Origin: Lentisphaera araneosa HTCC2155
GTDB lineage: Bacteria; Verrucomicrobiota; Lentisphaeria; Lentisphaerales; Lentisphaeraceae
DNA length: 37,996 nucleotides
Assembly (NCBI GenBank): GCA_945877655.1
Contig: CAMCSH010000003.1
Span: forward strand, 1-37,996
Direction of reading: 5' to 3'
Position 1 is the stretch's first letter, and every line of letters begins with the position of its first letter. A program made the position numbers and the translations under genes. Under the pieces are notes generated by a model. The model saw only the letters and a program-made list of their open reading frames with translations. It did no database searches and had not been told where the DNA came from. This document shows positions 2,789-35,392 of the stretch, in pieces.

Positions 2789-2928
2789 GTCTGTATCTCC
2801 TGTGGGTTCATGGTAGATGAGCGGGTGCGAACCAGTACAGCGTTTTTGCCAGCTTGTTCCTGTGTGTGCTCGCTTCGTGTTTGCCTAGTTGAGGCTTACT
2901 TGTATCCAATCAAGTTTTTGTGCTCAGA

Positions 2929-3480
2929 TCAGCCTTGCAGGCCGGCGTCGACGCCAGCCATGGCGCTGGTGTCGCTGAGGCGGCGGAGGAAGTGCAGGCC
3001 GGCGTAGACCTTCAGGTCGATGATGCAGCCGCGTTGGCGGCAGCTGTCGAGGAAGGCGTCGATCTGCTTCAGGGAGACGACATGGGCGACGATGTTTTCG
3101 TCGTGGACGCCGCCGCCTTTGCCGATCCGTTCGAGGCCGGTGGCAACATAGATGTCCATCAATTCATTGCTCAGGCCGGGGGAGGGGGTGCCATGGGCGA
3201 CGAGGTCGTAGCGCCGGGCGCGGAAGCCGGTTTCTTCTTCGAGTTCGCGGGCGGCGGCGTGGGCCGAGTTTTCGGGGTCGCCATCGCCGACCAGGCCGGC
3301 GGGGAATTCGATGCAATTCTTGCCGAAGGGGCGGCGCAACTGCTCCACCAGGACCGTTTCGCCGCGGTTGCTGAGAGGGACGATCATGACGCCGAAGGTG
3401 TCGCCGGCGCGGGAGACGTATTCCCAGCCGCGATCGTCGTGGAAGGTCAGCCAGCGGCCGGTGTAACGGACCGAGTCCAT
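2929..3480 (-). CDS. NUDIX hydrolase (ADP-ribose pyrophosphatase-like)
   Basis: Nudix box region AGLVGDGDPENSAHAAARELEEETGF; ATG at 3480 overlaps the upstream stop codon (TGATG); a GTG at 3483 is an alternative start. Confidence 0.92.
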   Translation of the reverse strand: MDSVRYTGRWLTFHDDRGWEYVSRAGDTFGVMIVPLSNRGETVLVEQLRRPFGKNCIEFPAGLVGDGDPENSAHAAARELEEETGFRARRYDLVAHGTPSPGLSNELMDIYVATGLERIGKGGGVHDENIVAHVVSLKQIDAFLDSCRQRGCIIDLKVYAGLHFLRRLSDTSAMAGVDAGLQG

Positions 3481-19366: not shown

Positions 19367-19434
19367 GGGGATTCCTGAGTTGTAGGAGTGTAGGGTGAAG
19401 GTGTTGTAGGAGTTGAGGAGATTCTAGCTTGTGG

Positions 19435-19477
19435 GCCCTTAAAACCCCTAAAACCCTTCCAACCCCTAAAACCCTTA
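19435..19477 (-). repeat. Dispersed G-rich intergenic element, copy A (starts on the ycfL-like stop codon)
   Basis: Reverse strand TAAGGGTTTTAGGGGTTGGAAGGGTTTTAGGGGTTTTAAGGGC; 40/43 identical to 34854-34896. Confidence 0.9.
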
Positions 19478-24002: not shown

Positions 24003-26207
24003 TCAGCGGTGTTTTTTCTTCGAGCTGTCATCGCTTTGGGCCGCTTCGCGTTCGCTAATCTGGGCGTCGCGTTCGGCACGTGCGGCCTCGGCGCGTTGAC
24101 GGGCTTGCGATTCGCGTTCAGCGCGGGCTTGCGCATCTCGTTCGCGCTCAGCGCGTGCGGCTTCGGCGCGTTCACGGGCTTGCGATTCGCGCTCAGCGCG
24201 TGCGGCTTCGGCGCGTTCACGGGCTTGCGATTCGCGTTCGGCGCGGGCTTGGGCATCTCGTTCGCGTTCGGCGCGAGCTTGAGCTTCGGCCCGTTGCTGC
24301 GCTTCTTGATGAGCCTGCTCTCGAGCGGCGCGCTGCTGTTGATCGCGCTCGGCGCGGGTTTGAGCTTCGCGGTCGCGTTCAGCGCGTGCAGCTTCGGATT
24401 GCTGGCGGGCGCGGGCTTCCTGTTCGGCCCGTTCCTGGGCGTCGCGTTGCTGAGCGGCTTGACGGCTGGCCTGCTGCTGGGCCTCCTGTTGCGCTTGTTC
24501 ACGGGCGGCACGCTGTTGAGCGTCGCGACCGGCCTTGGCTTGCGTCTCGGCGCGATGCTGGGCTTCTTGGGCCTGACGAGCTTGCTCCTGAGCCTGGGCT
24601 TGACGATCAATCTGAGCTTGACGCTCGATCTGGGCGATCGTTTGTTTTTCGCGTTCGGCCTGGGCCTGTTGTTGAGCTTGGCGTTCGGCAGCGGCGGCGT
24701 CCGCGCGTTGACGGGCCTGAGCTTCACGTTCGTTCCTGGCGTCGCGCTGAGCCCGTTCATAAGCAGCTTGCTGGGCGCGGACTCGGGATTCCCGCGCTTC
24801 GGCCTCTTCCTGGGCTTTGGCCTGGGCGGCGCGTTCAGCCCGGGCCCGAGCCTCGTTCAGCCTGGCTTCCTGCACGGCTTTGGCTTGAGCGTCAGCTTCG
24901 CGATCTTGTTTTGGGCTGCTGGGCTGGGGCTCGCGTGGGTTGTTTTGGCCAGCCCGGGCGGCTTCAGCGCGGCGACGAGCCTCGTTGAGCTGGTTTACCT
25001 GAGCCTTGGCTTGAGCCTCGCGAGCGGCTGCGGCGCGTTCGCGGGCTTCGTTCAGCCTGGCTTCCTGCTGCGCCTTGGACTGAATCTCGGGGGTTTGAGT
25101 TGTCGACTGCGGGTGACGACCTTGGGCTTCGGCGCGTGCGGCTTCGGTGCGGCGACGGTCTTCATTCAGTTGGGCGTCCTGTTGAGCTTGGGCTTGCGCG
25201 GCGCGTTCGTTGCGGGCCTGGGCCTCGGCGCGTTGCTGGGCCAGGGCTTCCTGCTGATTACGAGGCTGGCCGCTGTGGTTATTCAGGCGGTTTACCTGTT
25301 CTTCCCGGAGGCGCGCCTCTTCCTGGCGTTGCAGTTGAACCCGGGCCTGTTTGTCGGCTAGGTTCTGCGTCTCCTGCTGTTTTTTCAGCAGATCCGCCTG
25401 GCGACGCTGGGCGGCGTCTTCGAGATTGCGGGCTTCACGTTGTTGACGTAGCTCTTTGTCGCGGGCGATCTTGGCGGCCTCGGCCAGACGCTGCTGCTCC
25501 AGCTCTCGTTCGCGCTGGGCTTTGAGCTCGGCCTCGCGCTGCTTTTTCAGACGTTCGGCTTCAAGACGGGCAGTGCGTTCGGCTGCGGTCTCGACATGGC
25601 CGTGGTTGCCGCCATTTTGGCCGTTGTGGCCGTCGTTTCCGTGCTCATTGTGCCCGCCGGAATGGCCGGCGTGACCGCGGTCGTAGTTGCCTCTGCCGCG
25701 ATGACGGTGTTCTTCGACATAATAAAATCGCAGGTACCAGGTTTCGCAGCTGCGGCGGTGCAGCAGCTCCCGTTCGTGGCATTCGCGGGCGCAGCGATCC
25801 CGTTCCATCTGGTCATGCCAGGCGCGGTGGTCCAAGTCCCAACGCATCCGGTCGAGCTCCATCCGTTGATATCGCAGGCGGCATTCTTCATCGTCGAGCA
25901 ATCTCTGGCGCTCTTCGTACCAGACTTCGGACTCGACGCTGGGAGGGGCCCAATAAGGATCGTCATTGAGGCGACGCTCCATCACTAGCGGTGCCTCGCG
26001 GCAGACCGGCGGCGGCGGCAAGGGAGGGCACTCGCGGACGAGCGGCGCCGGGCTGATCAGGCTTTCATAGCGCTGTTGCGGCGGACAAGCTTCGACGGGG
26101 CGGCTTTCCAAATAGACCCGATCGGGTTCGGTTCGATAGGGGGCACAGGCGGCGAAAGTGCTCATCATCAACAAAGCCGCGACCGGCACGGTGACACGCG
26201 AGTTCAT
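24003..26207 (-). CDS. Large lipoprotein with His/Gly/Asn-rich linker and long Arg/Glu/Ala/Gln helical repeat region
   Basis: MNSRVTVPVAALLMMSTFAACAPYR; linker HRHRGRGNYDRGHAGHSGGHNEHGNDGHNGQNGGNHGH; then about 500 residues such as AERESQARERAEAARAERESQARERAEAARAERERDAQ; ends SSKKKHR. Confidence 0.85.
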   Translation of the reverse strand: MNSRVTVPVAALLMMSTFAACAPYRTEPDRVYLESRPVEACPPQQRYESLISPAPLVRECPPLPPPPVCREAPLVMERRLNDDPYWAPPSVESEVWYEERQRLLDDEECRLRYQRMELDRMRWDLDHRAWHDQMERDRCARECHERELLHRRSCETWYLRFYYVEEHRHRGRGNYDRGHAGHSGGHNEHGNDGHNGQNGGNHGHVETAAERTARLEAERLKKQREAELKAQRERELEQQRLAEAAKIARDKELRQQREARNLEDAAQRRQADLLKKQQETQNLADKQARVQLQRQEEARLREEQVNRLNNHSGQPRNQQEALAQQRAEAQARNERAAQAQAQQDAQLNEDRRRTEAARAEAQGRHPQSTTQTPEIQSKAQQEARLNEARERAAAAREAQAKAQVNQLNEARRRAEAARAGQNNPREPQPSSPKQDREADAQAKAVQEARLNEARARAERAAQAKAQEEAEARESRVRAQQAAYERAQRDARNEREAQARQRADAAAAERQAQQQAQAEREKQTIAQIERQAQIDRQAQAQEQARQAQEAQHRAETQAKAGRDAQQRAAREQAQQEAQQQASRQAAQQRDAQERAEQEARARQQSEAARAERDREAQTRAERDQQQRAAREQAHQEAQQRAEAQARAERERDAQARAERESQARERAEAARAERESQARERAEAARAERERDAQARAERESQARQRAEAARAERDAQISEREAAQSDDSSKKKHR
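24144..24233 (-). repeat. Exact tandem duplication of a 45-bp coding unit (15 aa)
   Basis: GCGCTCAGCGCGTGCGGCTTCGGCGCGTTCACGGGCTTGCGATTC twice in tandem. Confidence 0.9.
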
Positions 26208-34172: not shown

Positions 34173-34856
34173 ATGGACAAAGAACAGATCGCGCTCGATG
34201 GCCCCGCCGCCTCCGGCAAATCCACCCTCGCTAAACGCCTCGCGGACCGCCTCGGAGCTTTCTTCGTCAATACCGGTGACATGTATCGCACCTTGACCTG
34301 GGTCGCACTGCACAAAGGCCTGGATCCGGCCAAGGATATCGCCGAAATCACCAAGCTTTTGCACTTCGTCGATATCCGCTATGTCCGCACCCAGGCCGGC
34401 ACCATGGAGCTGTGGATGGATGATCGCCCGGTCGATCTCGCCAAGGTGCGGGTTTCGGAAGTCACCGCTCAAGTCTCTCATGTTGCCAAGATCGGCAACG
34501 TCCGCGAGTGGATGGTGTCGCGTCAGCGCCAAGCCGCACCTCTCGGTCTCTTGGTGATGGAAGGCCGCGACATCGGCACCGCCGTTTTTCCCCATGCCCG
34601 CTACAAATTCTACGTCACCGCCTCGCCTGAAGTGCGCGCCAAACGCCGCTTCGCCCAGACCGGCGAAGTTGCCGCAGGAGCCTCCTTCGAGCGCGTCGTC
34701 GCCGAAATCGCCGAGCGCGACCGGATGGATATGGAGCGCGAGCACTCGCCCCTCCGCCCTGCCCCTGACGCCATCCATGTCGACACCTCCGATCTCGACA
34801 TCGATCAGGTTCTCGAAATCCTGGCCCAACACATCGAAGCGAAACGACCGGAGTAA
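34173..34856 (+). CDS. cmk: Cytidylate kinase
   Basis: MDKEQIALDGPAASGKSTLAKRLADRLGAFFVNTGDMYRTLTW; VMEGRDIGTAVFPHARYKFYVTASPEVRAKRR; RDRMDMEREHSPLRPAPDAIHVDTS. Confidence 0.95.
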   Translation: MDKEQIALDGPAASGKSTLAKRLADRLGAFFVNTGDMYRTLTWVALHKGLDPAKDIAEITKLLHFVDIRYVRTQAGTMELWMDDRPVDLAKVRVSEVTAQVSHVAKIGNVREWMVSRQRQAAPLGLLVMEGRDIGTAVFPHARYKFYVTASPEVRAKRRFAQTGEVAAGASFERVVAEIAERDRMDMEREHSPLRPAPDAIHVDTSDLDIDQVLEILAQHIEAKRPE

Positions 34857-34896
34857 GGGTTTTACGGGTTGGAAGAGTTGTAGGGGTTTTAAGGGC
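34854..34896 (+). repeat. Dispersed G-rich intergenic element, copy B (starts on the cmk stop codon)
   Basis: TAAGGGTTTTACGGGTTGGAAGAGTTGTAGGGGTTTTAAGGGC; 40/43 identical to the copy at 19435-19477 (reverse strand). Confidence 0.9.
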
Positions 34897-34949
34897 GAGC
34901 AAGAAGCTTGACCATGAGCCCTGTCTCTTCTTTCTTCCTATCCACTACA

Positions 34950-34983
34950 ACGCCTAAAACCTTTCCAACCCCTAAAACCCTCA
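34950..34983 (-). repeat. Inverted partner arm of copy B
   Basis: ACGCCTAAAACCTTTCCAACCCCTAAAACCCTCA matches the reverse complement of 34854-34887 at 28/34 positions. Confidence 0.85.
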
Positions 34984-34987
34984 CAAA

Positions 34988-35392
34988 ATGACCAGCATCT
35001 CCTACCGTGTGCCTTATGCCGATACCGACCAGATGGGCGTTGTTTACTACGCCAATTATCTGGTCTGGTTTGAGCGTTGCCGCAACGAGATGCTGCGCGA
35101 CGCCGGCCTTCCCTACACCCGGCTCGAGGCCGAAGGGGTGATGCTGCCGGTTGTCGAGGCTCATTGCGATTACCGCATTCCAGCGCGTTATGATGACTTG
35201 CTCAGCATCACGGCTGCCGTCGAAAAAATCGAAGGCTGCCGGATTCGCATCGTCAACACCGTGGTCAACCAGGCGGGTCAGCAGATCGCGAAAGGCCACA
35301 CAGTCCATTGCTTCATGTCCGCATCGAGCCGCAAGCCGATCCGCCCGCCTGACAGCCTGCTCGCAGCTTTGGGTTGGACTGGCGAGATTTGA
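34988..35392 (+). CDS. ybgC: Hotdog-fold acyl-CoA thioesterase, YbgC/4HBT family
   Basis: YRVPYADTDQMGVVYYANYLVWFERCRNEMLRDAGLPY; GVMLPVVEAHCDYRIPARYDD. Confidence 0.95.
   Translation: MTSISYRVPYADTDQMGVVYYANYLVWFERCRNEMLRDAGLPYTRLEAEGVMLPVVEAHCDYRIPARYDDLLSITAAVEKIEGCRIRIVNTVVNQAGQQIAKGHTVHCFMSASSRKPIRPPDSLLAALGWTGEI

Follow-up and report, generated by a model that had tools for sequence, protein, structure and literature searches.

Introduction

Bacterial REP and REPIN elements, which go together with RAYT transposases, are intergenic, present in many copies and palindromic in appearance, and they often lie close after stop codons. Dispersed tandem repeats of another kind, with the heptamer units GGGNATC or GGGGA(C/T)T, were described in Xanthomonas and Nostoc by Rehm et al. 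(2015; PMC4692102), where they are mostly intergenic, prefer about four units and number 183-186 per Xanthomonas genome. For these repeats the coding strand is G-rich up to 50 bp after stops, some arrays overlapping the stop itself, and the non-coding strand is G-rich up to 50 bp before starts; convergent pairs form inverted repeats in Xanthomonas, the neighbouring genes have no common function, and quadruplexes were formed in vitro with no function found (PMC4692102). The TAACTGA direct repeats of the Beggiatoaceae and others are positioned a few nucleotides upstream of starts, occur sporadically across phyla and have been proposed to play a post-transcriptional role (MacGregor, 2015; PMC4679880). 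Here we describe a repeat with a 9-nt unit that lies, among other places, between cmk and a ybgC-like gene in a 37,996 nt stretch of DNA from Lentisphaera araneosa, this whole analysed stretch being referred to below as the window.

Results

An earlier note on the window had recognised two copies, A and B, of an intergenic element, of which copy B was said to start exactly on the stop codon of cmk. Its sequence and coordinates were correct, as was the statement that TAAGGGTTTTACGGGTTGGAAGAGTTGTAGGGGTTTTAAGGGC (copy B, starting on the cmk stop at 34854-34856) and copy A (19435-19477, minus strand) are identical at all but 3 of 43 positions, the number of matches with three mismatches or fewer expected in the shuffled window being 0. 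The arms are built of tandem copies of the 9-nt unit GGGTTKTAR (in the G orientation), a G-quadruplex-type motif, and the arms and their flanking genes are listed in Table 1. A quadruplex requires four GGG tracts; the G arm of copy B has four intact ones, and its C arm, with only two, would have too few for a three-layer quadruplex. Together the two arms of copy B make up an inverted repeat (34853-34905 / 34932-34984) of 53 nt with 77% complementarity, which when folded as RNA gave z = -4.46, with 0 of 200 shuffles folding equally well. The C-rich arm does lie just before the ybgC-like gene, the ATG of which is found 7 nt past the end of the arm, and no Shine-Dalgarno-like word was present upstream of this gene. 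The assertion that both copies share the same architecture holds in part, as copy A has one good arm only (its second arm scores 16.6 versus 57) and an RNA fold z of -1.99. An Rfam scan of the window at the gathering threshold returned tRNA only, the repeat matching no known family. The window also has, at 24003-26207 on the minus strand, a large gene that contains many degenerate direct repeats (families D1, D4, D5 and others).

Table 1. Positions in the window of copies A and B of the nonamer repeat and of the genes flanking copy B
Feature	Position	Strand	Description	Evidence
cmk	34173..34856	+	cytidylate kinase, gene upstream of copy B	PF02224, E = 1.2e-66
TAA stop of cmk	34854..34856	+	in phase with the 9-nt unit, at the place of unit positions 7-9	sequence; TAA enrichment at G arms
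Copy B G arm	34857..34895	+	four 9-nt units and a closing GGG: GGGTTTTAC GGGTTGGAA GAGTTGTAG GGGTTTTAA GGG	unit scan score 49
Copy B inter-arm spacer or loop	34896..34944	+		sequence
Copy B C arm	34945..34980	-	four minus-strand units: GGGTTTTAG GGGTTGGAA AGGTTTTAG GCGTTGTAG	unit scan score 47.5
ybgC-like thioesterase gene	34988..35392	+	gene downstream of copy B	PF13279, E = 4.6e-21
Copy A G arm	19439..19474	-	four units; adjoins the TAA (19475-19477) ending a DUF1425 gene	score 57; Pfam
Copy A weak second arm	19392..19427	+	precedes an lpoB-like gene, on the coding strand (minus) of which it is C-rich	score 16.6 (L003:1458-1493); Pfam

By BLAST, the genome (3.9 Mb in 370 contigs) yielded 43 matches at E <= 10, and a pattern search for GGGTTNNARGGGTTNNARGGG yielded 29 exact matches, with none for the reversed control. 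Merging of the BLAST and pattern matches, on which all copy counts rest, gave about 29 places, so that the additional genomic copies called for by the proposal of an intergenic repeat family are present and the family is confirmed. A unit scan covering about 1.10 Mb, made up of the window and 60 stretches of which some had been picked for holding copies, identified 9-nt units in 36 arms; four or five units were present in 27 of these, at least four GGG tracts were kept in 22, and the commonest unit cores were TTTTA, TTGTA and TTGGA. The arms vary in unit number. The full inverted repeat, although real at copy B, is not supported as the basic unit of the family, since many copies are single arms and the arms of one element are no more complementary than those of different elements (see below). 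The genes neighbouring the arms have no common function as judged by Pfam. By pattern search, a match was obtained in one of 197 other genomes of the same class. A text search for the repeat sequence retrieved one paper, which was unrelated. A second palindromic intergenic repeat, GACCCCTTCAGGGTC ... CCCAGGGTGTCGCCGATGCGGCTCAACCCTGGGCT, is represented in the 1.10 Mb sample by 34 core matches, 5 of which fall within called genes, and in the window by none; it often stands beside nonamer arms, as at L009, L010 and L028, where it adjoins C arms, and at L036 and L241, where it lies beyond the arms, and also occurs at L006, at about 2790-3030.

The arms obey a placement rule which, like their 9-nt period, does not figure in the earlier note, namely that the G-rich strand begins at a gene end and runs outward from the gene. 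Genes were called by codon usage, with distances and a few start codons set by hand, and copies at contig edges (C64, C200a) were left out of the placement judgement. Among solo arms, 14 of 15 were nearer to the gene on the 5' side of the G strand, with one tie, and the distance from the gene end was 0-13 nt in 14 of 15, even where the intergenic region exceeded 100 nt; uniform placement within the intergenic span was rejected (p = 2.9e-9). Paired arms were in G-then-C order in 11 of 11 cases. The stop adjoining a G arm was TAA in 8 of 12 cases as compared to a genome background of 22% (p = 0.0012). TAA keeps the phase of the 9-nt unit, and two copies have their stop within the array. Just 1 of 16 starts behind C arms had a Shine-Dalgarno-like 4-mer, as compared to 53% in the genome (p = 9e-5), a depletion that is automatic once an arm fills the site and hence reflects tolerance rather than benefit. 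Coding sequence holds two arms, each of them C-rich on the coding strand: one (L008:1297-1332) in MutL, where it codes for part of the linker from DNA_mis_repair to MutL_C (residues about 412-424), and one in the gene of an AMP-binding enzyme, where it falls in a variable loop. An in-frame insertion into the latter gene could not be claimed, since at this point the loops of homologues (about 30-34% identity) are similarly long.

In five relatives of the same family a ybgC-like gene lies within about 10 nt of cmk and the array is absent. Because these junctions are tight and array-free, the present lineage gained roughly 130 nt at cmk-ybgC, while the cmk stop stayed at about its former position. 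The earlier note had suggested that the element may supply the stop codon, and that element-free cmk-ybgC junctions might then end cmk elsewhere: the frequency and phase of TAA and the stops inside arrays speak for the former, whereas the comparison with element-free relatives, which end cmk at about the same place, revealed no shift. At rpmE-prfA, ordinary intergenic regions of roughly 100 nt, free of arrays, were seen in two relatives in which an rpmE neighbour was detected; since in the present genome this region also contains another repeat, the support for a second empty site is weak.

Compensatory changes between the two arms had been set beforehand as a check, on the logic that in a co-evolving stem an arm should pair with its own partner better than with foreign arms. 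Pairing within elements was no better than between elements in this genome (mean score 15.2 versus 15.5, p = 0.66), nor was it in a Gemmatimonadetes genome, G198 (20.0 versus 20.6, p = 0.82), and a strict-register form of the test on five elements gave p = 0.17. A co-evolving hairpin is not supported by these comparisons, in which numbers are small, the two-arm copies being few and not orthologous, and a weak effect would be possible. A lack of compensatory variation is what the earlier note had named as refuting its proposal. RNA folding gave z values of -4.5, -7.4 and -6.4 for C3B, C297 and C268, respectively, and of about -1.5 to -2.4 for other pairs. Two arms that each follow the outward rule account better for the inverted repeat, the one at cmk-ybgC existing because both flanking genes carry an arm, though the best pairs are still able to fold into a hairpin.

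A wider scan took in about 85,000 species genomes, and the genomes named from it are a sample, taken from among the matches listed. One of these listed genomes, the above-mentioned G198, had 36 pattern matches and none for the control; its pairs (L274-L291) were in G-then-C order in 17 of 17 cases, with the unit variants GGGTTSTAA, GGGTCATAA and GGGATGTAA, and the nonamer pattern was found in none of 60 relatives of G198. The genome RUG334 (G205; L292-L306) carries long GGGTTGGAA arrays of up to 29 units that are mostly unpaired and intergenic, which represents a different pattern with a similar unit. Also among the matches listed, several unrelated genomes of Bacteroidales, Mucilaginibacter and Uhrbacteria (L067, L084, L087, L095, L099 and others) have similar G-rich nonamer arrays between genes, some of them with a C-rich arm nearby, and a few arrays occur in some other listed genomes.

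Discussion

We give an even chance to the reading that the nonamer is a dispersed, boundary-anchored tandem repeat which grows by slippage or template switching and is kept for a role at the ends of messages. Each arm is an array in its own right, commonly with four or five units, which extends outward from a gene end, its G-rich strand in the lead; the coding strand is therefore G-rich just past stops and C/A-rich just before starts. Arrays may be seeded at gene ends, where TAAGGG offers a ready-made unit junction, may then grow by unit slippage or template switching, and would be retained for their effect in the message. Following a stop, the G-rich strand or transcript could adopt a quadruplex or hairpin and thereby pause transcription or protect the upstream message, while ahead of a start the C/A-rich leader could stay open and permit initiation without a Shine-Dalgarno sequence. 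In favour of this reading are the 9-nt units in 36 arms, 22 of which keep four or more GGG tracts, the outward rule, the G-then-C order of pairs here and in G198, the TAA and Shine-Dalgarno figures, the absence of the element from the five relatives with a tight cmk-ybgC junction and the same rule as published for GGGNATC repeats (PMC4692102). Against it, the neighbouring genes share no function and the C arm of copy B has too few intact GGG tracts for a three-layer quadruplex, and the restriction to a lineage (1 of 197 class genomes) fits a functionless burst as well. Such a neutral or selfish burst, in which replication errors, recombination or break repair expand and spread the nonamer while selection purges copies from coding sequence and from harmful orientations, is in our judgement less likely but a serious alternative: it agrees with the sporadic occurrence (29 matches here and 1 of 197 other class genomes; 36 in G198 and 0 of 60 relatives), with the variable unit number and with the two copies in tolerant protein regions, the MutL linker and the AMP-binding enzyme loop, yet it would predict scatter, whereas 14 of 15 solo arms lie 0-13 nt from a gene end even in intergenic regions over 100 nt, and the phase with TAA stops also speaks against it.

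The strong folding of C3B, C297 and C268, the tight ancestral junction and a stem base located at the stop codon and adjoining the start codon would be expected of a functional RNA hairpin, in which pairing of the G and C arms joins stop and start and keeps a tight operon coupled, or acts as a terminator or attenuator; we regard this as unlikely, given that complementarity within elements is not in excess, many arms are single and other pairs fold weakly. That the repeat is a mobile element, as the earlier note had proposed, is unsupported. A palindrome of REP/RAYT or MITE type that a transposase has dispersed would be in keeping with dispersed intergenic copies, with the gain at cmk-ybgC and with eight PF01797 (Y1 transposase) matches in the genome, one of which (contig C64) is about 3.3 kb from an array, the contigs of the others being absent from the array matches. 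However, the arrays have no fixed core or ends, vary in unit number and include single arms, relatives without repeats have similar or higher PF01797 counts, and no arrays surround the one transposase locus of this genome that was read (L359). We consider this explanation very improbable. Scarcely any weight is given to the reading that this outward nonamer system has appeared separately in single genomes of distant phyla through an activity, itself transferable, by which GGGTTNNAR repeats would be added to the ends of DNA where genes meet; under it, the head-to-head G-then-C order of nonamer pairs would be that of fused telomeres, and no enzyme for GGGTTNNAR end addition was found. As regards a boundary-anchored repeat with a role at message ends, the TAA phase, the lost Shine-Dalgarno words and the element-free ancestral cmk-ybgC junction make simple reporter tests possible.

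When compared to known systems, the nonamer arrays share with REP and REPIN elements their intergenic position, multiple copies, palindromic look and closeness to stops, but differ from them in having no conserved palindromic core, in that arms also occur singly, and in that no link to a Y1 transposase was found. The TAACTGA repeats resemble the C arms in being short tandem repeats just before starts that occur sporadically, whereas their unit is of 7 nt without G tracts, they are direct, with one indirect set reported, and they have no G arm after stops. Relative to the repeats of Rehm et al. (2015), the unit described here is a nonamer, GGGTTKTAR, and not a heptamer, it is found in another phylum and in far fewer copies (about 29 places, as compared to 183-186 repeats per Xanthomonas genome), and quadruplex formation is here predicted from tract counts. 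The TAA-stop phase and the Shine-Dalgarno depletion were not found reported in that study (PMC4692102). That boundary-anchored G-rich repeats with different units follow the same rule of placement in bacteria that are unrelated speaks for a constraint or function of a general nature at the ends of genes. The nonamer repeat is of the same kind as the boundary repeats of Xanthomonas and Nostoc, and stands outside their sequence family because unit length and sequence differ, while the two have in common dispersed tandem arrays of G tracts with about four units, the same rule of strand and distance, overlap with stops and convergent pairs.
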